DNA of 64,000 nt, taken from assembly GCF_000506985.1 (NCBI RefSeq), contig NZ_KI650979.1, forward strand, positions 2,046,710 through 2,110,709, written 5' to 3'. The notes below the pieces were generated by a model. That model was not told where the DNA came from. It made no database searches and worked only from the letters and a program-made list of their open reading frames with translations. This DNA is from Advenella kashmirensis W13003 (GTDB lineage: Bacteria > Pseudomonadota > Gammaproteobacteria > Burkholderiales > Burkholderiaceae_B). Shown in pieces: positions 5,060 to 28,266 of the stretch; position 1 is the stretch's first letter, and every line of letters starts with the position of its first letter. Position numbers and translations under genes: made by a program.

Positions 5060-6001
5060 ATGACGACAGAAAGTGGACAATTCGATGAGGGGCGATGGCA
5101 GCGGGTGTTGCACGAATTGGGCAGTCAGGATTGGCCTGCCGGCTGTCTTTATGTCGTGGCCACCCCGATCGGCAATCTGGCCGATTTATCCCCCCGCGCG
5201 CTGTTTGCATTACGCAAGGCAGATGTGATTGCGGCAGAGGATACGCGCTCGTCGCGGGTCTTGCTCAATGCCTGGGGCATTGATACCCCCATGATGTCCG
5301 CTCACCGCCACAACGAGGCGCAGGCAGCGGCAACCGTCTTGCGTCATCTTCAGGACGGGCAGCGGGTGGCGCTGATTTCGGATGCAGGCGCCCCGGCGGT
5401 CAGCGACCCGGGCGGACGCATTGTCAGTGAAATTCGCAAGGCGGGCCTGCCGGTTCGTGTCATTCCGGGCCCGTCGGCCGTGATTGCTGCCTTGATGGGC
5501 AGCGGCGCGACCAGCGATGAAAACCCGTCTTTTGTCTTTGCTGGTTTCGCACCGCCCAAGGCCGTGGCCAGACAGGGGTGGCTGAAAACCTGGTGCGCCT
5601 TGCCGGCAGCCGTGATTCTGTTTGAATCACCGCATCGGGTGCGCAGCACGGCAGTCGATATTGCTGCGGTTGCCGGTCATGACCGGCTGGTCACGGTGGC
5701 CCGTGAATTGACCAAGCGTTTCGAGCAGATTGTCACAGTGCCGGCAGGGGAGCTTGCGGACTGGTTTGCCGGCGACCATCAGCGAACCATGGGCGAATTT
5801 GTGCTGATCATCCACGAATCGGCAGCAAAAGAAGCCGGCACATTGAATCCCGATGCAGACCGGATCATAGCGGCCATGCTCATTTCGCATTCGGTCAAGG
5901 ACACCGCCCGAATGCTGGCAGCTTTCAGCGGGCTGCCCCGCGACGTGCTGTACGCCCGGGCATTGCAACTGAAAGACGGGGACGCAAGCGAGGCCGATTG
6001 A
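5060..6001 (+). CDS. rsmI: 16S rRNA (cytidine1402-2'-O)-methyltransferase
   Basis: Tetrapyrrole-methylase-fold enzyme that 2'-O-methylates C1402 of 16S rRNA in the P site, using SAM. The ATG at 5060 is chosen because the family sequence (VVATPIGNLADLS) begins about 30 residues later; the open frame to 4946 is unconserved. The SAM-binding motifs DAGAPAVSDPG and PGPSAVIAAL are intact. At 313 residues it is slightly longer than E. coli RsmI because of its N-terminus. It diverges from yraN, as in many Proteobacteria. Confidence 0.93.
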   Translation: MTTESGQFDEGRWQRVLHELGSQDWPAGCLYVVATPIGNLADLSPRALFALRKADVIAAEDTRSSRVLLNAWGIDTPMMSAHRHNEAQAAATVLRHLQDGQRVALISDAGAPAVSDPGGRIVSEIRKAGLPVRVIPGPSAVIAALMGSGATSDENPSFVFAGFAPPKAVARQGWLKTWCALPAAVILFESPHRVRSTAVDIAAVAGHDRLVTVARELTKRFEQIVTVPAGELADWFAGDHQRTMGEFVLIIHESAAKEAGTLNPDADRIIAAMLISHSVKDTARMLAAFSGLPRDVLYARALQLKDGDASEAD

Positions 6002-18776: not shown

Positions 18777-19529
18777 TCAATGCGCCATCAGCAGGCCTTC
18801 CTTCTGGAACGCGGCATGGATCTGGCGCGCAAAGGCCAGCGCATGAGCACCATCGCCGTGCAAGCAAAGGGTATCAGCCTGAATCGGAACTTTTTTGCCT
18901 GACTGCGCTATGACATAACCCTCCTGTACCATGGTCAAGGCCTGGGAGACCGAGGTTTCAACCTCTTCAATCAGCGCGCCCGGCTGGTTACGTGGGGTGA
19001 GGGTGCCGTCATCCTGATACGAGCGATCGGCAAACACTTCCTGCATGACGGTCAGACCCAGTCCACGGGCAATGTCTACCTGACGACTGCCGGCAAGTGC
19101 AAACAGAGTAAGCTGCGGATCGACATCGCGTACGGCCTGGGCGATGGCTGCGGCCAGTTCAGCATGGTTGGCGGACATGTTGTACAGCGCGCCGTGAGCC
19201 TTGACATGATAAAGCCGGCCCCCCTGGGCACGGGCGACGGCGGCGAGCGCGCCGATTTGCACGACCACCAGGTCATACACCTGGATGGGGGTGAGTGCGA
19301 AGGGGCGGCGACCAAAGCCACGAATGTCATCCAGACCCGGATGGGCACCAGGCCTGACGCCCTGCTGTAGTGCCAGTTGCATGGTGTGCCGCATGGTATG
19401 AGCATCGCCGGCATGAAAACCGCAGGCGATATTGGCAGACGTCACATAGGGCATGATGGCGGCATCGTCACCCATCTTCCAGGCGCCGAAGCTCTCGCCC
19501 ATATCACAATTGAGATCAATTTTTTTCAT
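18777..19529 (-). CDS. pxpA: 5-oxoprolinase subunit A (LamB/YcsF family)
   Basis: Subunit of the PxpABC 5-oxoprolinase, which hydrolyses 5-oxoproline (pyroglutamate) to glutamate with ATP. 250 residues from the ATG at 19529, which has AAGGA upstream; an extra ten residues from 19559 are unlikely. Family motifs: DLNCDMGESFGAW, ANIACGFHAGDA and VKAHGALYN. It is the third gene of the minus-strand order pxpB-pxpC-pxpA. Some bacteria place LamB/YcsF genes with biotin carboxylase genes, as is the case about 3 kb away here. Confidence 0.92.
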   Translation of the reverse strand: MKKIDLNCDMGESFGAWKMGDDAAIMPYVTSANIACGFHAGDAHTMRHTMQLALQQGVRPGAHPGLDDIRGFGRRPFALTPIQVYDLVVVQIGALAAVARAQGGRLYHVKAHGALYNMSANHAELAAAIAQAVRDVDPQLTLFALAGSRQVDIARGLGLTVMQEVFADRSYQDDGTLTPRNQPGALIEEVETSVSQALTMVQEGYVIAQSGKKVPIQADTLCLHGDGAHALAFARQIHAAFQKEGLLMAH

Positions 19530-19630
19530 CACATCGTTTCCTTGGAGCGGGCTGTGCAATAGCAGGATATGCCCATTCTATATCGCATTTGTCATGGCGC
19601 GGGCGCGGATGCCCCGGGGCCTTGTCAGAT

Positions 19631-20677
19631 TCATGTTGATCGGACAAACGCATCTTCCATGGCTGTGCCCAGTGGTGCCAAAGCCTGATGTACCTGGGCG
19701 AACAGCGCTTCGCGCTGCAGGAATACAGTGCGCGCCTCGTTCAGGCTGATCAACGACAGTTGAATGGATTCTCCCGGCAGGCATCGGGCCAGTACCGGCA
19801 GATCGACACTGGCGACATTGGCAATTTTCGGATAACCGCCGGTTGTCTGACGGTCTGCCATCAGGATAATGGGCTGGCCATCGGGCGGGATCTGAATGGT
19901 GCCAAATGCCGTCGGTTCCGAAAGAATCTGCAGGCCCGCCTCGGTTTGCAGGGACGGTCCATCCAGACGATAGCCCATTCTGTCGGAACTGGGCGTGATG
20001 GTATAGCGGGCGTTCAGAAAAGCGGTTTGCTGATTGACGGTAAAGTGTGTCCAATGCGCGCCGCGCGTTACCCGGATATGATGCCGTGATCCCAGACCCA
20101 GCCCGGCAGGCAGATAGATGCGGAATTGATCCAGGAAGTGCGCCAGTGCGTCGACAGCCGTTGGGCCCAGCTTGCGGTTGAGCGTCAGCCGGTCTTCTTT
20201 CATCAGCGCCCGTCCATGAAAGCCGCCCATACGACTTTTCAGATCGGTACTGGCGCTTTCCATGGTGGTATTTAACTGAATACCTCCGGCGATGGCCAGG
20301 GTCGCCCGCGCCTGGCCTTGCGGGGTGTCGTTACTGACGGGCGCGGAGCCAATACTGAGTACCTGACCGGTGCGAATCAGATGGGGGCGATTCAGTGCGA
20401 TCGGGCGGCCATCGCATTCAAGCGTAAAAGCGGCACCACACACCGCGATGCAGGCGTCCTGCATGAACTTGATCTGCGGGCCGGACAGCGTCATTTCCAG
20501 TACGGGCAAAAGTGTGCGATTGCCGACCAGCGCGTTGGCCAGCCGGAAGGCGACCTGATCCATGACGCCGCATACCGGAGCGCCATAGGCTTGATAGCCA
20601 TGTCGGCCTGCATCCTGAAATACAGACAGCGGGCCGGGTTTGAGCACAAGCAGACCTGTTTCCTCTTCTGAACGCAT
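19631..20677 (-). CDS. pxpC: 5-oxoprolinase subunit C (biotin-dependent carboxyltransferase-like, KipA family)
   Basis: 348-residue KipA/AHS2-domain protein, the partner of PxpB in forming the ATP-dependent 5-oxoproline phosphorylating unit. The family opening LSVFQDAGRHGYQAYG is seen near residue 18, and the C-terminal DRMGYRLDG and ADRQTTGGYPKIA segments are present. It follows pxpB after 9 bp and precedes pxpA by about 100 bp. Database names such as 'biotin-dependent carboxyltransferase' reflect homology to urea carboxylase regions; no biotinylation site exists in it. Confidence 0.9.
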   Translation of the reverse strand: MRSEEETGLLVLKPGPLSVFQDAGRHGYQAYGAPVCGVMDQVAFRLANALVGNRTLLPVLEMTLSGPQIKFMQDACIAVCGAAFTLECDGRPIALNRPHLIRTGQVLSIGSAPVSNDTPQGQARATLAIAGGIQLNTTMESASTDLKSRMGGFHGRALMKEDRLTLNRKLGPTAVDALAHFLDQFRIYLPAGLGLGSRHHIRVTRGAHWTHFTVNQQTAFLNARYTITPSSDRMGYRLDGPSLQTEAGLQILSEPTAFGTIQIPPDGQPIILMADRQTTGGYPKIANVASVDLPVLARCLPGESIQLSLISLNEARTVFLQREALFAQVHQALAPLGTAMEDAFVRST

Positions 20678-20686
20678 TGCTTTTCC

Positions 20687-21445
20687 TTACCGTATTGTCT
20701 CTGTCCGGGCCTTGATTTGTTCGTACTCCTGGCGGCTGATGATATCAAATTGCACCTGATCGCCTGGCGCATAGCGCGCGTAGGGCGGGGTGTGCGGATC
20801 AAACAGGCGCAGCGGCGTGGCGCCGACAATATTCCAGCCGCCGGGAGAGTCGTTGGGGTAGATCACTGTCTGGCGGTTGGCAATGGCGACCGACCCCGCG
20901 GGCAGATGCTTGCGGGGCGTACTGCGCCGGCCAATGGCCAGGCGTTCATCGGACAGACCCATATAGCCCATGCCCGGGGCAAACCCCAGCATAAACACCC
21001 GAACCGGCGCGGCCGTATGCAGTTGGATGACCTCTTCAACCGTCAGCCCGCAGTGCCGGGCGATGTCATCCAGGTCGATCCCAAACGACGGGTCGTAGCA
21101 GACCGGGATCCGAATCAGGCGTGCCGCTTCGGTCACGGCGGCGGCGTTATCGCGAATGTTATCGCTGTGGGCAAGCGGCGCCAGAATCTCTGTCAGCGTG
21201 TTGATCAGTTCTTTATGCGCAGGCGGCTGCGGATAAAAGGGATGTAAACAGACGCCCAGCGTGGTGAACGTGGGCACCAGGTCACTGATGTAGGGCAGTT
21301 GGGCATTGTGAATCAGTTCCGCTGCCTGGCGGGCGCGCGCATTGATTGCCGGGTCGATCTGATCGCCGAAGCGGATGATGACGCAATGGTCGCCTTCGGA
21401 ACTGAAGGTCCAGGGGGCAGTGGAAGAGGCCGGATGTGAATTCAT
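20687..21445 (-). CDS. pxpB: 5-oxoprolinase subunit B (KipI family)
   Basis: 252-residue AHS1/KipI-domain protein. Recognisable segments: VIRFGDQIDPAIN at the start, VCYDPSFGIDLDD in the middle, and FMLGFAPGMGYMGLSD with the C-terminal PGGWNIVGATPLRLF. Together with PxpC it forms the ATP-binding part of 5-oxoprolinase. First gene of the pxpBCA transcript; its leader lies in the 309-bp region facing the GntR gene. Confidence 0.9.
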   Translation of the reverse strand: MNSHPASSTAPWTFSSEGDHCVIIRFGDQIDPAINARARQAAELIHNAQLPYISDLVPTFTTLGVCLHPFYPQPPAHKELINTLTEILAPLAHSDNIRDNAAAVTEAARLIRIPVCYDPSFGIDLDDIARHCGLTVEEVIQLHTAAPVRVFMLGFAPGMGYMGLSDERLAIGRRSTPRKHLPAGSVAIANRQTVIYPNDSPGGWNIVGATPLRLFDPHTPPYARYAPGDQVQFDIISRQEYEQIKARTETIR

Positions 21446-21754
21446 GGGATGTGTAAATTGCGATCAAAAAAACGGAACCCATTACCAGACGAGATGAAAA
21501 AGAGTGTATCAGTAATTCGCGCAAATTCGGCGAATCATGGAGCTCAAGCCGCGGACGTTAGCGAGGCGAAAGTGGTCGCGTCTTTATAAGCAGGAGCGGG
21601 CTGAATTAATCCGCGAGGATGTGGCACAATCGTTTTGTTAACTATCTGAATTATTACATCAGGGCTATAATAGGGTGTGTTAAACGCGAGGACACGCGGT
21701 TAAATTTCTGGTGCCTGAGTGCACTTAATCAATAGGTCAATAGGCAGGATATAT
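21446..21754. other. Divergent pxpB / GntR intergenic region
   Basis: 309 bp, no coding frame of note. It holds the leader of pxpB on the left. On the right is the GntR promoter area: a TATAAT at 21666-21671 with no clear -35 at 16-18 bp, and a TTGTTAAC-core element at 21633-21646 just upstream. An additional GTGTGTTAAAC half-site-like sequence is near 21675. Confidence 0.5.
21633..21646. promoter_or_regulatory. Candidate GntR operator upstream of its own gene
   Basis: TTTTGTTAACTATC matches 11 of 14 positions of the perfect palindrome TATTGTTAACAATA in the biotin carboxylase/BCCP divergent promoter, including the central TTGTTAAC. It lies about 20 bp upstream of the -10 of the GntR gene, suggesting autoregulation. 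Confidence 0.45.
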
Positions 21755-22501
21755 ATGGTGAAATCGACGGGTCAGGAAGCGCTGGACAGTTTTGAAAGTA
21801 CAGTGGAATTCCGCCTTTTTTCTGACCGTAGGCAATTGACACTTTCCCTGCCAGAGCAAATAGCGGCTCAACTGGGTGACCAAATCATCAGTGGGGCGAT
21901 GGCCAATGGCGCGCATATACCTGAACAGGAACTTGCAGAACGTTATGAAGTGAGCCGGGGTCCGGTGCGAGAGGCGCTCAGAATTTTGGAACGTGAAGGT
22001 CTTGTTATCGTCAATGCGAGAAGAGGGGCTTCAGTCAGTGAATTGAACGTGACGGAACTGGCGGAGATCTTTGAAGTGCGCAGCGCTTTGTTGTCGCTGG
22101 CGGCTCGCAAAAATGCCACGACCCGGAGCCCGGAACTGTTGAATCTGCTGGAATATGGCATTGAAAAACTCGCGACTTACGTCGACACGCCGGAAGATGG
22201 CAGTCGTTACGCCGAAACGACTTACCGTCTTTCGTTGCTCTCGGCGCGCTACGCGTCTAATGCCCGACTCAGTCAGATCGTGACATCGCTGTCCTTGCAA
22301 ACCCTGCGTTATTCAAAGCTTCAATTTCGTGTAAAAGCGCGCCGCGAACGGTCGCTGGAATTCTGGCGTCAAAGCTTGCGTGCCTGTCGCGAAGGCGATG
22401 TTGATGCGGCTGTCCGGATTTGCCAGGAACGGATACAACTATCGTGGGATGCCACGCTCGCCGTTCTTCAGAAAGGCGAACCCGGCACAGGTAAAGAATG
22501 A
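21755..22501 (+). CDS. GntR-family regulator, FCD (FadR-type) ligand domain
   Basis: 248-residue transcription factor. The start at ATG 21755 has AGGCAGGA 6-13 bp upstream; the GTG at 21719 is less likely. The N-terminal winged helix (about 25-95) contains the GntR pattern GPVREALRILEREGLV; the C-terminal all-helical FCD domain (about 100-235) probably binds an organic acid through a metal-centred pocket. It is flanked by pxpB (divergent) and the biotin carboxylase gene (convergent). The shared palindrome suggests it represses the carboxylase genes and itself; this is inferred. Confidence 0.85.
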   Translation: MVKSTGQEALDSFESTVEFRLFSDRRQLTLSLPEQIAAQLGDQIISGAMANGAHIPEQELAERYEVSRGPVREALRILEREGLVIVNARRGASVSELNVTELAEIFEVRSALLSLAARKNATTRSPELLNLLEYGIEKLATYVDTPEDGSRYAETTYRLSLLSARYASNARLSQIVTSLSLQTLRYSKLQFRVKARRERSLEFWRQSLRACREGDVDAAVRICQERIQLSWDATLAVLQKGEPGTGKE

Positions 22502-22517
22502 CATTGACGTTTGATCA

Positions 22518-23879
22518 TCAGGCGTGCACGGTTTGTCTTTTGACAATATCGTCGGCCAGTTGTGTGTGAATTTTTCCTTCCTGAAAATCGGCATCCTGCA
22601 AGGCGGCGACGAGAAATGGAATATTGGTTTTGATGCCTTCAACCACACTGTCCGAGAGCGCCTCAGATAGACGGGCAATCGCCTGTTGGCGGTTCGCTCC
22701 ATAAGCAATAACCTTGGCAATCATCGGGTCATAATAGGGGGATATCCGGTTGCCCTCAGCGTATCCGGTTTCAATGCGGATGCCTGGCCCCACCGACAGG
22801 CGGAACACTTTCAATAGCCCGGGCGATGGAATCCAGCGCCATGGATCTTCTGCATAAATGCGAGCCTGTATGGCATGTCCCTTCGGGGGCTGGAGATCGG
22901 CCGATATAACATCGGACAAGCGCTGTCCGGCAGCCAGTGCGATCTGGCTTCTGACAATATCTACACCCGTTACTTCTTCGGTGACACCATGCTCCACCTG
23001 CAGACGCGTGTTCATCTCCAGAAAGCTGAATCCCCGGTCCGGGTCGTATAGTGTCTCAATGGTGCCGATGTTGTTGTATTGAATGGTCTTCATAATGTGC
23101 GCCGCCGTGTCCGCCATTGACAAAATCGTCGCACGCTCGATCGCCGGGGCACCCGCCTCTTCAATCACTTTCTGATGGCGGCGCTGGATAGAGCAATCAC
23201 GCTCAAACAGATGGATGGCATTGCCGTAATTATCGGCAATGATCTGGAACTCGATATGGCGGGGCCGCTCAAACAGTTGTTCAGCGTACAACTCGCCATT
23301 GCCAAAGCTTCTTTGCGCCAGGCCCCGGGCCTTTTCCAGCGAGGCGGGCAATTGCTCGGGCGAGTGCACCGAAAGCATTCCGATACCGCCACCGCCGGCC
23401 GCGGGCTTGATCAACAGAGGGAAGCCAACTGCGGCTGCCTGCAGGGATTGCTGTGCCAAATCTCCGCGCAAAACTTGACTGCTCTGGCACATTGGCATGG
23501 CATGTTGCTTCATCAACTCACGGGCCTGTGTTTTATGTCCCATGGATTCAATCCAGTTTGCAGCCGGACCGATAAAGACCTTACCTGCCTGCATGACCTT
23601 GCGAGCAAATTCCGCATTTTCAGACAGAAATCCGTAGCCAGGATGGATGGCGTCGGCTCCGGTGACGCATGCCGCGTTCACAATCGCATCCATGTTCAGA
23701 TAACTTTGCCGGGCCACCGCCTCTCCGATACAGACGCGTTCGTCAGCCTGGGCGATATAAGGCAAATCTGCATCGGCATGCGAGTAAACCGCGACACTTT
23801 GAATGCCCGAATCCTGCAGGGCACGAATGATTCTGGCAGCGACGGCCCCTCGATTGGCCACTAATACTTTTTTGAACAC
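22518..23879 (-). CDS. Biotin carboxylase subunit of an acyl-CoA (or AccBC-type) carboxylase
   Basis: 454 residues if started at the GTG at 23879, which has AAAGGAG 7 bp upstream and begins exactly at the family N-terminus (FKKVLVANRG). The upstream ATG at 23939 would add 20 unconserved residues across the promoter. ATP-grasp enzyme that carboxylates biotin with bicarbonate and ATP; motifs HPGYGFLSEN, GGGGIGM and FLEMNTRLQVEH are present. The last motif reads VEHGVTE, whereas AccC has VEHPVTE. It is a stand-alone biotin carboxylase with no fused BCCP, divergent from a separate BCCP gene. Its carboxyltransferase partner could be the protein at 25578 or, less likely, a Pxp-associated complex. 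The housekeeping AccC is presumably elsewhere. Confidence 0.86.
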   Translation of the reverse strand: MFKKVLVANRGAVAARIIRALQDSGIQSVAVYSHADADLPYIAQADERVCIGEAVARQSYLNMDAIVNAACVTGADAIHPGYGFLSENAEFARKVMQAGKVFIGPAANWIESMGHKTQARELMKQHAMPMCQSSQVLRGDLAQQSLQAAAVGFPLLIKPAAGGGGIGMLSVHSPEQLPASLEKARGLAQRSFGNGELYAEQLFERPRHIEFQIIADNYGNAIHLFERDCSIQRRHQKVIEEAGAPAIERATILSMADTAAHIMKTIQYNNIGTIETLYDPDRGFSFLEMNTRLQVEHGVTEEVTGVDIVRSQIALAAGQRLSDVISADLQPPKGHAIQARIYAEDPWRWIPSPGLLKVFRLSVGPGIRIETGYAEGNRISPYYDPMIAKVIAYGANRQQAIARLSEALSDSVVEGIKTNIPFLVAALQDADFQEGKIHTQLADDIVKRQTVHA

Positions 23880-23938
23880 GCGCTTTCTCCTTTCCCATGG
23901 ACGAATCAATTTTTGATGTGTGTGGACATGCACGCTCA

Positions 23939-23967
23939 TTGTGCATTTTATGTTTGTGTATTATATT
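23939..23967 (+). promoter_or_regulatory. Promoter for the BCCP-CoA-transferase-carboxyltransferase genes
   Basis: -35 TTGTGC (23939-23944), 17-bp spacer, -10 TATATT (23962-23967). The start of transcription would fall in the palindrome at 23967-23980, about 30 bp before the BCCP start codon. Confidence 0.5.
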
Positions 23968-23990
23968 ATTGTTAACAATATTTTTGTCAA
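23960..23990 (-). promoter_or_regulatory. Promoter for the biotin carboxylase gene
   Basis: On the minus strand a perfect TTGACA (23990-23985) and a perfect TATAAT (23965-23960) are separated by 19 bp; the palindrome TATTGTTAACAATA fills most of the spacer. AATATA or TAATAT would be alternative -10 elements at 17 or 16 bp. Confidence 0.55.
23967..23980. promoter_or_regulatory. Palindromic operator shared by both divergent promoters
   Basis: TATTGTTAACAATA is a perfect 14-bp palindrome. It overlaps the end of the plus-strand -10 and its start point, and lies inside the -35/-10 spacer of the minus-strand promoter, so one bound repressor could silence both. The neighbouring GntR/FCD protein is the natural candidate. 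Confidence 0.65.
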
Positions 23991-24004
23991 TAAGGAGTGG
24001 GAGC

Positions 24005-24217
24005 ATGGAAATCCTGTCAGAGGTTACAGGCAATGTTTGGAAAGTGCTTGTTAAACAAGGGGATGCCGTGGAAGCGGGTCAAACACTGGTCATCGTGGAA
24101 TCGATGAAAATGGAAATACCGGTGGATGCCGAAACGGCGGGCACGGTCAGTCTGTTCGTGAAAGAAGGGGATCCGATCGAAGAAGGCATGCGGGTTGCCG
24201 AAATCATCGCGTCTTAA
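24005..24217 (+). CDS. Biotin carboxyl carrier protein, short stand-alone form
   Basis: 70-residue biotinyl domain only. The biotinylation motif ESMKME (modified Lys at residue 36) is centred in the domain, and the hairpin-forming GNVWKVLVKQGDAVEAGQ is typical. The ATG at 24005 has AAGGAG 9 bp upstream. It lacks the N-terminal Ala/Pro-rich linker of AccB, so it is a minimal carrier of the type seen in urea-carboxylase-like and LamB/YcsF-associated clusters. It should shuttle carboxybiotin between the divergent biotin carboxylase and a carboxyltransferase. Confidence 0.9.
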   Translation: MEILSEVTGNVWKVLVKQGDAVEAGQTLVIVESMKMEIPVDAETAGTVSLFVKEGDPIEEGMRVAEIIAS

Positions 24218-24253: not shown

Positions 24254-25528
24254 ATGAGCCCTACTTTAAACACGCAGCCAGTGACCGCCGAAACCGGGTC
24301 TGCACCCCTGGCAGGCATTAAGGTCATCGAAATTTGCAGTACGATCGCAGGCCCTGCATGCGGACGGCTACTTGCCGATTTCGGTGCAGACGTGATCAAA
24401 ATTGAGCCGCCTCAGGGTGATCCGGTACGCCAGATGGGTAGCCATGTTGGCGATATTTCGCTTTATGCAGCCTCGATATTGCGCAACAAGCGTTCTATCG
24501 TGATTGATCTGAAATCAGAGCAGGGGCGGGAGCTGGCGTTGGCGCTGATTGCCAGGGCCGATATTGTTCTGGAAAACAACCGGCCCGGCGTCCTTGAGAG
24601 ACTGGGGCTGGGATATGAGCAGGTAGCCGTGAAGCATCCTGGCGTGATCTACGTGCGCATCAGCGGTTATGGGCAGGATGGCCCCTATTCGCAACGTCCC
24701 GGCTATGGCGCTATTTGCGAAGCGGTGGGGGGCGTCAGGCACATGACCGGGGATCCGGACCGTCCGCCTGCCCGGGTGGCGCTGGCGACGACTGATTACC
24801 TGACCTCAGTCTATGCAGCCTTCGGCGCACTGGGCGCGTTGCGCAGTCGCGACCGGACAGGCAAGGGGCAGGTGGTGGATGTTGCCCTGTACGAGACTGC
24901 GTTTACACAGCTTGAACCGCTGGTGCCCGCCTACCAGAAACTGAATAAAGTTCCGATGCGGGTGGGACCCAATCTGCCTTCCATGGCGCCCAACAGTCTG
25001 TATCCGACACGGGATGCGAATTACTTGTTGATTGCCGCCAATAGCAATGCCACTTTCGAGCGTTTGCTCAAACTGATGAATCGGCTTGAGCTGCTGCAGG
25101 ATCCGCGTTTTTGTTCGATTCGTGCACGCGGAGAAAAACCCAATATGCTGGCACTGGATGCCATTATCAGCGATTGGACGCGGCAGTACGACGCCGTTGA
25201 GCTGGAGCAGATGATCATTGACGTGGAGGTACCCGTCTCACGTGTGTACACCGTCGCAGATATCTTCGATGACCCGCATTATCGGGCTCGCAGCATGATA
25301 GCCCACGTCGCCCATCCCCAACTGGAGTCAGTTGCACAAATCGGCGTGGTGCCAAGGTTGTCCGCCACACCTGGGATTATTCGTTTTACCGGCCCGGATC
25401 TGGGTGCAGACACGATCAGTGTATTGCGAGACGAGCTTGGTCTTCAGGATGAAGCTATCGACAATATGCTCAGTGCCGGCGTTGTTCGTGAGGGCGCATC
25501 CACGCGTCGTCGCGGGCACAAACAATAA
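24254..25528 (+). CDS. Class III CoA-transferase (CaiB/BaiF family)
   Basis: 424 residues from the ATG at 24254 with CAGGAG upstream; it begins 36 bp after the BCCP stop. Transfers CoA between carboxylic acids through an aspartyl-CoA thioester; Asp181 (ATTDYLTS) is the expected catalytic residue. N-terminal motifs GIKVIEICSTIAGPACGRLLADFGADVIKIE and C-terminal domain are complete. Its place between a BCCP and a carboxyltransferase suggests that it activates the acid whose thioester is then carboxylated, or recovers CoA from the product. Substrate unknown. Confidence 0.88.
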   Translation: MSPTLNTQPVTAETGSAPLAGIKVIEICSTIAGPACGRLLADFGADVIKIEPPQGDPVRQMGSHVGDISLYAASILRNKRSIVIDLKSEQGRELALALIARADIVLENNRPGVLERLGLGYEQVAVKHPGVIYVRISGYGQDGPYSQRPGYGAICEAVGGVRHMTGDPDRPPARVALATTDYLTSVYAAFGALGALRSRDRTGKGQVVDVALYETAFTQLEPLVPAYQKLNKVPMRVGPNLPSMAPNSLYPTRDANYLLIAANSNATFERLLKLMNRLELLQDPRFCSIRARGEKPNMLALDAIISDWTRQYDAVELEQMIIDVEVPVSRVYTVADIFDDPHYRARSMIAHVAHPQLESVAQIGVVPRLSATPGIIRFTGPDLGADTISVLRDELGLQDEAIDNMLSAGVVREGASTRRRGHKQ

Positions 25529-25577: not shown

Positions 25578-27149
25578 ATGAATACATTTGAATATCACGG
25601 TGAACAGTGGAAAGAGGAATACGAGGAGCTGTACAAGCGCCGCCAGATGGCCCAGGCCATGGGTGGTCCGGAAGCATTGCGTAAACACCGCGAACGCGGT
25701 CGATTGAACGCACGCGAACGCATGGGCGCGCTTTTGGATACAGGCAGTTTTCGGGAAATGGGCAAGTTATCCGGCAAGGGTCGCTACGATGAAAACGGCC
25801 GGTTTCTAGATATGTCCCCCGTCAATGCCATCATCGGGACAGGCAAAATCGACAGGCGCACCGTCGTGGTTTCCGGCGACGATTACACCTTGCGTGCGGG
25901 GTCTTCCGAATCCACAATTTCAGATAAATGGATTTATGCGGAACGCATGGCAATGACGATTGGCACGCCGTTGATCAGAATGGTGGACAGTGCCGGCGGG
26001 AGCGTGAAACTGTTGGCCCAGATGCGGGGAACCAAGATCCCGGGATATCCGACCTGGCCGGCGATCAAGCTGCTGCAGCATGTGCCTGTGGTCGGGATTG
26101 CATTGGGGTCGTGTGCGGGCCTGGGAGCCATGAAAGTGTTACTTTCCCATTTTTCTGTCATGGTGCGCGATCAGGCGCAGGTTTTTGCTGCCGGTCCGCC
26201 GGTGGTCAAACAGGCCTATGGCATCGAGATCGACAAGAACGATCTTGGGGGATACAAAGTACACAGGCGCAGTGCGCTGGTGCATAACGAAGCGGTAGAT
26301 GAAGCAGATGCTTTTGCTCAGGTTAGGCGGTTTCTGAGTTATCTGCCTAGAAACAGCGAACAGATGGCGTCGCGTACAGAATGCCAGGACTCCCCCGAAC
26401 GCGTTGAAGACTGGCTGGCAGATGCAATTCCAAAAGACAGACGCAAAATATTCGATCCACGGAAAATTCTTGCGGCCATTTGTGACACTGATTCGATTTT
26501 TGAAATTGGTCGCTGGCAGGGTGGATCGGTGATCACTGCGCTGGCGCGTGTCGATGGTTATCCAGTGGGAATTTTATGTAGCGATCCCAAGATTGCCGGG
26601 GGTGCGATGACCGTCGCGGCGGCCTATAAGACAGAGAGGCATGTCAAATTATGCGACACATTCGGGCTGCCTATCATTAATTTTGTGGACCAGCCGGGTA
26701 ATGCAACCGGTCCCGAAGCCGAGTTGCAGGGAACACTACTGGCTGCTGTTCGCGTACTGGAGACCATCGAAAAAGCGAATACGCCATGGTTTTCCGTGAT
26801 TATGCGCCGCTGTTTCGGTATGGCCGGCGGCATGCACGCACCCAAACATTTCCCCGCCTTGAATCATCGCGTCGCCTGGCCTTCCGCGCGCTGGGGATCT
26901 ATCCCCATTGAAGGCGGTGTCTATGCCGCGCACCGGCGCGAGATAGACCAGGCATCGAATCCGGATGCCAAACGTCAGGAGCTGGAGGGTCAATACCATC
27001 ATTTGGGCTCACCTTTTCGCACCGCCGAAGCCTTCGGAATACTGGACATCATTGATCCGCGTGAAACGCGTTCTATTCTGTGCGATTGGGTCGCGGAAGC
27101 GTGGGAGGTGATGGGACAGCGCAAAAGTCGCAGCACAGATGCGCGCTGA
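25578..27149 (+). CDS. Acyl-CoA carboxylase carboxyltransferase (beta) subunit
   Basis: 523 residues from the ATG at 25578; upstream frame is antisense or overlapping and unconserved. Two crotonase-fold halves: the N half includes GRLNARERMGALLDTGSF and the oxyanion-hole region with SCAGLGAMKVLLSHFSVMV; the C half has FDPRKILAAI, GGAMTVAAAYKTERHVKLCD and FVDQPGN. These match the PccB/MccB type, transferring CO2 from carboxybiotin to an acyl-CoA. It lies 49 bp after the CoA-transferase. Its acyl-CoA substrate cannot be read from sequence. A dedicated dehydrogenase is absent, so it is not an obvious leucine or geraniol pathway enzyme. Confidence 0.88.
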   Translation: MNTFEYHGEQWKEEYEELYKRRQMAQAMGGPEALRKHRERGRLNARERMGALLDTGSFREMGKLSGKGRYDENGRFLDMSPVNAIIGTGKIDRRTVVVSGDDYTLRAGSSESTISDKWIYAERMAMTIGTPLIRMVDSAGGSVKLLAQMRGTKIPGYPTWPAIKLLQHVPVVGIALGSCAGLGAMKVLLSHFSVMVRDQAQVFAAGPPVVKQAYGIEIDKNDLGGYKVHRRSALVHNEAVDEADAFAQVRRFLSYLPRNSEQMASRTECQDSPERVEDWLADAIPKDRRKIFDPRKILAAICDTDSIFEIGRWQGGSVITALARVDGYPVGILCSDPKIAGGAMTVAAAYKTERHVKLCDTFGLPIINFVDQPGNATGPEAELQGTLLAAVRVLETIEKANTPWFSVIMRRCFGMAGGMHAPKHFPALNHRVAWPSARWGSIPIEGGVYAAHRREIDQASNPDAKRQELEGQYHHLGSPFRTAEAFGILDIIDPRETRSILCDWVAEAWEVMGQRKSRSTDAR

Positions 27150-27249
27150 GCGTGTTGTTTTCTTTACAAGAAGTAGAAAGATGTCGGCAAATTCGCCGAT
27201 GCAAAGTGGAGACATGCAGTGTGTTCATTCACCATTCGAGGAGATCAGT

Positions 27250-28266
27250 ATGAATATAAATCGTTGTATCAGGCCTTTGTGTAAAACGGCTATGGGCGTA
27301 CTTCTGGCGTATGCCGCAGCGACTGCCGGCGCAGCACAGGCGCAATCGCAGGAAAGTGGTGCCTGGAAGCCCGGTAAAGGAGAGTTTATCGTGCCGGCAG
27401 GCCCCGGCGGGGCGCTGGATACGTCGGCGCGAATGATTGCGCATTTGCTGCAGGTCAAGAAGTTATATCCCAACCTTGTTGTCGTGAACAATCCGGGTGG
27501 CAATATGACGATTGCGCTTAATGCGCTGGACAGGCACAAGGGCGATGGGAATTATGTGGCGACATCAGTCAGTTCGCTGATGAATCAGGAGATTCTTGGC
27601 AAGTTGAATCATAAGTTTGCCGATTACACAGAAATTGCAACCTTATTCGACGAGTATGTGGCGGTTGTGGTCAGGGCAGATTCACCGTACAAAAATATCC
27701 ACGAATTGATCGCCAAATTCAAAGCAGCACCTGACGCACTTAACGTTGGGGTTGCCACGTCTATTGGCAACCATATTCATGTCGGTATCGCGAGCCCGTT
27801 GAAGGAGGCGGGTGTCAATATCAGCAAGATGACCGTCGTGCCTTATAAGTCGTCTTCTGAATCCATGACTGCGCTGCAGGGAGGCCATCTCGATGTTGTG
27901 GCAGCCACGACACCGAATCTGGTCGGTCTGATGCAAAGCGGGGCTATCCGGGTGCTTGCTATCGGCGCACCCGAACGCTTGAGTGCGCCGTTCGACACGG
28001 TGCCGACCTGGGTGGAAGAAGGGATTAATGTCGTGCCAAGTTCCGCCCAGGGCGTACTTGGTCCCAAGAATATGCCCAAAGAACAGCTGGAAGTATGGGT
28101 CCAGATGCTCAAGACTATTACGGCGACAAAAGAGTGGAAGGATTTTCTGGCCAAAAATCATTGGCGTGAACATTTTCTGGAGCCTGAACAATCACGGGAA
28201 TACCGTGCCCAGGAGTATAAAAATATTCACGCTGTCTTGACTGAATTAGGGTTGGTCAAGCAATAG
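27250..28266 (+). CDS. Bug-family tripartite tricarboxylate transporter receptor (first copy)
   Basis: Periplasmic solute-binding protein of the TctC/Bug family, 338 residues. The ATG at 27250 has GAGGAG upstream; a signal peptide ends about residue 32 (AQA-QSQ). Segments typical of the family are VPAGPGGALDTSARMIA and, near the middle, NVGVATSIGNHIHVG. Bug proteins bind carboxylates for TctA/TctB or act in sensing; neither membrane subunit is in the window. It lies 100 bp after the carboxyltransferase, so it is likely the last gene of that operon. Confidence 0.88.
   Translation: MNINRCIRPLCKTAMGVLLAYAAATAGAAQAQSQESGAWKPGKGEFIVPAGPGGALDTSARMIAHLLQVKKLYPNLVVVNNPGGNMTIALNALDRHKGDGNYVATSVSSLMNQEILGKLNHKFADYTEIATLFDEYVAVVVRADSPYKNIHELIAKFKAAPDALNVGVATSIGNHIHVGIASPLKEAGVNISKMTVVPYKSSSESMTALQGGHLDVVAATTPNLVGLMQSGAIRVLAIGAPERLSAPFDTVPTWVEEGINVVPSSAQGVLGPKNMPKEQLEVWVQMLKTITATKEWKDFLAKNHWREHFLEPEQSREYRAQEYKNIHAVLTELGLVKQ

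Follow-up and report, generated by a model that had tools for sequence, protein, structure and literature searches.

Gene organization of the locus

How might a bacterium control both arms of a divergently organized biotin-dependent carboxylase locus from one short piece of DNA? We addressed this question in a 64,000-nucleotide stretch of the Advenella kashmirensis W13003 genome (hereafter, the window). The biotin carboxylase (BC) gene lies on the minus strand (22518–23879) and was recognized by its Biotin_carb_N/C and ATP-grasp matches. We propose GTG 23879 as its start codon, which has a GGAG upstream and from which the congener proteins also align. An alternative, longer BC start at 23939 would put the row of sites described below close to or inside the BC gene. 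Four genes on the plus strand run the other way, namely those of the biotin carboxyl carrier protein (BCCP; 24005–24217, ATG at 24005; Biotin_lipoyl, 8e-17), a class III CoA-transferase (24254–25528; CoA_transf_3, 1e-119), a carboxyltransferase (CT) subunit of the propionyl/methylmalonyl-CoA type (25578–27149) and a Bug/TctC solute-binding protein (27139–28266). The start of the last is uncertain, with conservation beginning near residue 21 in three of four congeners and at residue 7 in the fourth. A gene for an FCD-type GntR regulator (21755–22501, plus strand; Pfam GntR 6e-18, FCD 3e-15), the inferred binder of the sites discussed here, adjoins the BC gene. The BC and BCCP genes are separated by 125 bp of 63% A+T.

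The gene order gntR, BC (reversed), BCCP, CoA-transferase, CT and Bug is identical in four congeners (L051–L054). Advenella incenata DSM 23814 shares the locus (L106). In one of the four congeners (genome G007, L053:9077-10628), the CT gene matches as three overlapping pieces, which points to a frame disruption or a misassembly close to the gene start. The CT subunit is closest to propionyl/methylmalonyl-CoA enzymes. In three or four relatives, neighbouring genes encode acyl-CoA ligase domains, a thiolase, a FadB/J-like protein and an AMP-binding enzyme, which say only that the carboxylase substrate may be an organic acid handled via CoA.

Two further gene groups flank the locus. Beside the GntR gene, three minus-strand ORFs (18777–21445) resemble, as named by eye, the pxpA/C/B 5-oxoprolinase set; at this locus, the congener stretches contain nothing that matches them at E 1e-8. 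Also on the minus strand, the segment 29557–32391 encodes a citryl-CoA lyase-like protein, two small dehydratase-like ORFs (the one scanned had a weak Pfam match below the cut-off) and a second class III CoA-transferase. This cluster adjoins an ORF that is LysR-like by eye and looks like another CoA-dependent organic-acid pathway.

A conserved palindrome between the divergent genes

The initial annotation had placed a palindromic operator at 23967–23980, and an exact palindrome, TATTGTTAACAATA, is indeed found there, with the core TTGTTAACAA at 23969–23978. When the 125-bp intergenic stretch was dinucleotide-shuffled 2000 times, a perfect palindrome of at least 14 bp arose in 24 cases, so that the form is only moderately unusual and by itself no more than suggestive. 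The genome search proposed in that annotation returned the 10-bp core once in 4.85 Mb, at this site; the exact operator form is therefore local, and a second genomic copy is ruled out. We do not take this rarity as evidence alone, since by a rough estimate a few copies of TTGTTAACAA would be expected in a 4.85-Mb genome, and the reversed control is found five times. Allowing up to three mismatches, the window holds six matches to the palindrome versus 0.88 expected, and the genome-wide number is at background (186 per strand versus 280 for the reversed control).

Conservation, more than palindromic form, carries the case for a predicted operator at 23967–23980. In the intergenic alignment of five Advenella species, 13 of the 14 palindrome columns are invariant compared with 50/117 outside, and for the longer segment 23953–23994 the figures are 35/42 and 28/89; these counts are descriptive, since the compared species are related. 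That the palindrome is a chance feature of A+T-rich DNA, as the 14-bp palindromes in the shuffles might suggest, is extremely unlikely in view of its conservation in five species and of the recurrence of the motif beside GntR homologues, mostly in Burkholderiales.

A related site upstream of the GntR gene had been claimed as an 11/14 match, and TTTTGTTAACTATC is located at 21633–21646 on the plus strand. All four congeners have TATTGTTAACTATA at this position, so that all five species have a matching site ahead of the GntR gene, and 12 of its 14 columns are invariant versus 52/187 outside. We regard it as a putative autoregulatory site, but the fact that the window copy matches at only 11 of 14 positions counts against the operator reading. 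A putative -10 box of the GntR gene, TATAAT (21666–21671, plus strand), is conserved in 5/5 species. The site sits near -38 of this putative promoter, a position from which some regulators activate.

Putative overlapping promoters

The putative -10 box TATATT, said to abut the palindrome, is present at 23962–23967 on the plus strand, where it overlaps the palindrome by one base. It would serve the BCCP/CoA-transferase/CT/Bug operon together with a putative -35 box, TTGTGC, 17 bp away (23939–23944), and the predicted start, at about 23974, would fall inside the palindrome. This pair is too weak to be among the sites of our promoter scan. On the minus strand, the putative BC promoter consists of TTGACA (23990–23985) and TATAAT (23965–23960), with a predicted start near 23953. 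Both hexamers are perfect and flank the palindrome, as the initial annotation had described; the spacer that the palindrome was said to fill is, however, 19 bp long rather than the usual 16–18 bp. In the promoter scan, the partner of TTGACA is a different hexamer, TAATAT (23968–23963), at a 16-bp spacer. The perfect TTGACA is a feature of the window and is replaced by TTAACA in the four congeners, whereas TATAAT/TATATT and ATTGTG are invariant in the five species. Because the scan found six promoter-like sites in a 9-kb stretch, against 6.3 expected, the promoter assignments rest mostly on conservation.

On opposite strands, the two putative -10 boxes almost coincide in position, so that two polymerases would hardly fit there together. 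Owing to this overlap, the operator would lie across the start region of one promoter and within the spacer of the other. The arrangement raises the question of how the two subunits of one enzyme are balanced with one polymerase at a time.

The GntR protein might also activate, rather than repress, one or both carboxylase promoters. The poor plus-strand -35 box TTGTGC would fit such a role, as would the position of the gntR-side site near -38, where activators can work. However, the location of the operator, across the putative plus-strand start and within the minus-strand spacer, is typical for repression, and PrpR, which has the same operator type, is described in the relevant passages of PMC9765439 as a repressor. 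We consider activation improbable.

Co-occurrence of the motif with the regulator

The central idea of the initial annotation, that a GntR operator serves both divergent carboxylase units and gntR itself, is strongly supported by comparative genomics. Within the genus, the intergenic operator was found in 5/10 genomes, and the same five carry a close GntR orthologue (the genome of the window and the four congeners, the latter at 79–80% identity). The other five have no operator and only distant GntR matches. At the family level, we compared 250 genomes and found a related CT (E up to 1e-180) in 21, of which 16 lie outside the genus. All eight non-genus genomes with a gntR homologue (46–57%) beside the CT gene carry TTGTTAACAA upstream of the operon, compared with none of the eight that have a related CT without gntR beside it; among these latter stretches, two are short contigs and one has ATTGTCGACAAA inside the CT gene. 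In five family relatives (L151–L155), the operon has BCCP and CT genes and the 16-kb stretch gave no BC match; the BC subunit may be borrowed from elsewhere.

A wider scan used one genome per species and the best 80 of 187 relatives; three Advenella loci were left out, which gave 77 loci. The motif TTGT-N2-ACAA (TTGTNNACAA) is present in 62 of these 77 non-Advenella GntR loci. The next best of 64 half-sites with one G or C reaches 18/77, and spacers other than 2 (0, 1 and 3–8) are found in one to seven loci each. Six half-sites rich in G+C are more widespread among the 77 loci than TTGT, as would be expected in G+C-rich DNA. Among the same 77 loci, all 59 full 12-mers ATTGTNNACAAT (in 54 loci) lie near the starts of regulator, carboxylase, CoA-transferase or Bug genes, from 350 bp upstream to 40 bp inside the estimated start; their neighbours are gntR (41), BCCP (7), CT (4), CoA-transferase (3), Bug (3) and BC (1), and their centres are TG (44), CA (10), TA (3) and CG (2).

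In this set of 77 loci, TTGTNNACAA also tracks the carboxylase, being present in 57/60 loci with a carboxylase gene versus 5/17 without one. The three carboxylase loci that lack it are L065, L067 and L119. L065 ends at a contig end, and L119 has two 7/8 copies, TTGTTGTCAA and TTGTTGACAT (at 5845 and 5860), exactly 15 bp apart upstream of gntR. L067, as far as its sequence can be read, counts against the operator reading, because its best matches are 4/8 in the divergent BCCP/BC gap and 6/8 in the roughly 290–330 bp before gntR. In plasmid records, we found seven distant regulators, and the two examined sit in other gene sets. A metagenome Burkholderiales clade (L070 and similar) has two different CT genes together with BC and BCCP genes beside the GntR gene.

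The genome contains 36 gntR-like matches and 66 TTGTNNACAA sites, versus 39 for the reversed control, and another FCD-GntR paralogue could thus be the real binder. The three paralogue genes that we examined, however, have their own upstream TTGTNNACAA with other centres (CG, AG and AT), and the TTAA form, which has no other copy in the genome, accompanies this orthologue from genome to genome. We therefore regard a paralogue as a very unlikely binder. The three genes (G000:C2:101150, C1:456048 and C1:2336074, in loci L180, L181 and L182, respectively) are FCD-GntR-like, and their sites lie just upstream, as if the two central bases told the paralogues apart.

A row of candidate sites with a 15-bp period

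In the initial annotation, a single bound dimer was thought to shut off both units. This is probably too simple, judging from the DNA around the palindrome, which appears to be one rung of an evenly spaced row of weaker copies covering both promoters; the row looks new. The intergenic stretch holds exactly four TTGT, at 23939, 23954, 23969 and 23984, separated by three exact 15-bp steps. The same four are in step in 4/4 congeners, and L051 and L054 each have one extra TTGT off the series. TTGT was also seen as a half-site at a distance of 8 bp from the palindrome, on one side of it.

The candidate units differ in quality. The right unit, TTGTCAATAA (23984–23993, plus strand), matches TTGTNNACAA at 7/8 positions, lies 15 bp from the central core and overlaps the minus-strand -35 box. 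Its conservation alone is not significant (9 of 14 columns of 23982–23995 invariant versus 54/117 outside). The left unit, TTGTGTATTA (23954–23963, plus strand), matches at 6/8, again 15 bp from the core. In 20000 flank shuffles, the right score was reached seven times, the left score 163 times and both together once, with thresholds (7/8 and 6/8) that were picked after the site was seen. The outer left TTGT, TTGTGCATTT (23939–23948, plus strand), 30 bp from the core, is a half-site at most and also forms the putative -35 box TTGTGC.

The 15-bp spacing recurs outside the window. We pooled the Advenella sites with those of the 80 loci (best 80 of 187) and 16 family stretches, which gave 90 sites, 69 of them nonredundant. 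A second TTGTNNACAA-like decamer (at least 6/8) lies exactly 15 bp away in 43 of the 69, whereas each other offset from 5 to 29, except 12, is found in 0–1. Offset 12 was seen in 29/69, mainly in one metagenome clade whose TTGTTGTCAAGAA reads at both 12 and 15; a 12-bp offset was accordingly dropped as a second rule. After harder dereplication to 34 sites, the mean score at 15 bp was 5.21/8 versus 2.64 in shuffles (highest of 2000, 3.26), with 16/34 sites at 6 or more. Dereplication to eight sites gave 4.75 versus 2.61 (highest shuffle, 4.00), with 3/8 at 6 or more. The consensus of 26 strict nonredundant sites, with the better flank turned to the right, reads ATTGT-YR-ACAAT-CTK-ATTGT-NN-NCAA. 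Of these 26, eight have no second unit at 5/8 or better and 17 have one; the window alone has units on both sides, and two units are the common case outside Advenella.

The spacing was absent from the other FCD operators that we examined. Before the three paralogous gntR-like genes of the same genome (centres CG, AG and AT), TTGTNNACAA is accompanied by at most a 4/8 match at 15 bp. Among at least 31 ATTGTCGACAAT sites in 30 loci (46 genomes with a match), one reaches 6/8 at 15 bp, and of those with a gntR-like gene in the locus, which is not necessarily PrpR, 0/5 do so.

Alternatively, one dimer on the central palindrome may suffice, and the TTGT series of Advenella would then reflect -35 boxes and A+T-rich DNA of the promoters, falling in step by chance. 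Only one unit of the row is a full palindrome, and the outer TTGTs overlap putative -35 boxes; because these boxes begin with TTG, part of the conservation of the outer units may be promoter constraint. Moreover, units on both sides are present in just one of the 26 strict nonredundant sites and in eight there is none. On the other hand, the TTGT at 23954 belongs to no promoter box, all four intergenic TTGTs are 15 bp apart and in step in 4/4 congeners, and the second unit is enriched at 15 bp in other genera (the 34-site comparison above). We consider the one-dimer arrangement rather unlikely, though it is the alternative to which we give the most weight.

The regulator protein

The regulator has an N-terminal GntR winged helix-turn-helix domain (PF00392) and a C-terminal FCD domain (PF07729), both above cut-off, and both models match 24/24 aligned homologues at E up to 0.001. 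Its predicted operator, TTGT-TA-ACAA, has the form of FadR-subfamily sites, that is, an A/T-rich palindrome with TKGT/ACMA boxes and a centre of 2–3 nt.

Many FCD proteins, but not all, have metal-binding histidines. The three columns that read H, H, H in the outgroups L131–L133 are S, W, R in the window protein. In 24 of the 26 carboxylase-side sequences the second position is W, and not one of the 26 has the full histidine triad. This pattern distinguishes a subgroup and is compatible with membership of the FCD-GntR family. The pairs R185-Y186 and R196-R197 are nearly invariant. Together with S, W and R in place of the histidines, these arginines suggest that the ligand may be held by arginines rather than by a metal, which points to an acidic or CoA-linked compound.

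Proposed mechanism

Given the sequences themselves, how well they are conserved and how regularly they accompany this GntR family, we consider it likely that the palindrome is a high-affinity operator of the adjacent FCD-GntR repressor and that the weaker units at 15-bp steps let dimers spread. The protein would repress the BC gene, the BCCP/CoA-transferase/CT/Bug operon and its own gene. Binding would probably be nucleated at the exact palindrome, and the weaker units, at exact 15-bp steps, would let further dimers spread over about 55 bp spanning both -35 boxes. An acidic or CoA-linked pathway intermediate would release the repressor.

A more general proposal is tentative. An FCD-GntR subgroup without the metal histidines may control biotin-dependent carboxylase operons through phased ladders, along which dimers polymerise from the exact palindrome, closing both of the mutually exclusive promoters in Advenella; we regard this as possible, at somewhat less than even chances.

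What began as an isolated palindrome can thus be treated as a testable regulon: in dozens of genomes one can trace an FCD-GntR subgroup that seems not to have been characterised, together with its operator and the carboxylase and CoA-transferase genes that it would control. With its 15-bp steps, the ladder lends itself to clean tests of cooperation between FCD-GntR dimers on adjacent sites.

Comparison with known systems

FCD-GntR operators of the TTGT-N2-ACAA type are already known. In the open-access literature that we searched, we found no published description of a carboxylase regulon of this subgroup, of its motif or of the 15-bp ladder. Among solved structures, the chain nearest to the regulator is 7xp0, which we take to be PmiR of Pseudomonas aeruginosa and PmiR, in turn, to be the same protein as PrpR (PA0797). 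The FCD histidines of 7xp0 are replaced by S, W and R in the window protein. The structure 6z74, presumably that of Atu1419, is also a profile match. The ligand of PrpR/PmiR is 2-methylisocitrate.

The passages of PMC9765439 on P. aeruginosa PrpR describe an FCD-GntR repressor of the methylcitrate operon with the predicted motif ATTGTCGACAAT; in gel shifts, the protein binds DNA upstream of its own gene. As far as these passages go, the two systems have in common the 12-bp TTGT-N2-ACAA motif, an FCD-GntR protein, a site before its own gene and an organic-acid/CoA operon. The centre is CG for PrpR, whereas TA, TG or CA is found in nearly all sites here. The target of PrpR is the methylcitrate (prp) operon, whereas here it would be the BC/BCCP/CT/CoA-transferase genes, which places this locus outside the PrpR/PmiR type. 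The five ATTGTCGACAAT sites with a gntR-like gene, not necessarily that of PrpR, are without a 15-bp second unit, unlike the window.

FadR-subfamily sites with TKGT/ACMA boxes, in one class of which GT and AC are 2 nt apart, are treated in PMC4494728. This 2-nt class matches the window motif, and the passages on it name no carboxylase regulator of this clade. The tetrameric FCD-GntR protein Atu1419 of Agrobacterium fabrum, as portrayed in the sections of PMC7797058 on its operators, recognizes palindromes 109–190 bp apart that can be looped. It resembles the window system in its short 10-bp palindrome over promoter boxes, in the repression of catabolic genes, which is predicted here, and in having more than one site; it differs in that it binds zinc and in the distance between sites, which is 15 bp here. 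Escherichia coli NanR, in the account of its operator in PMC8012715, places three dimers on (GGTATA)3. Its repeats are direct hexamers, whereas those of the window are 12-bp palindromes at 15-bp steps, but NanR sets a precedent for an operator of closely spaced repeats that is shared by several GntR-type dimers.
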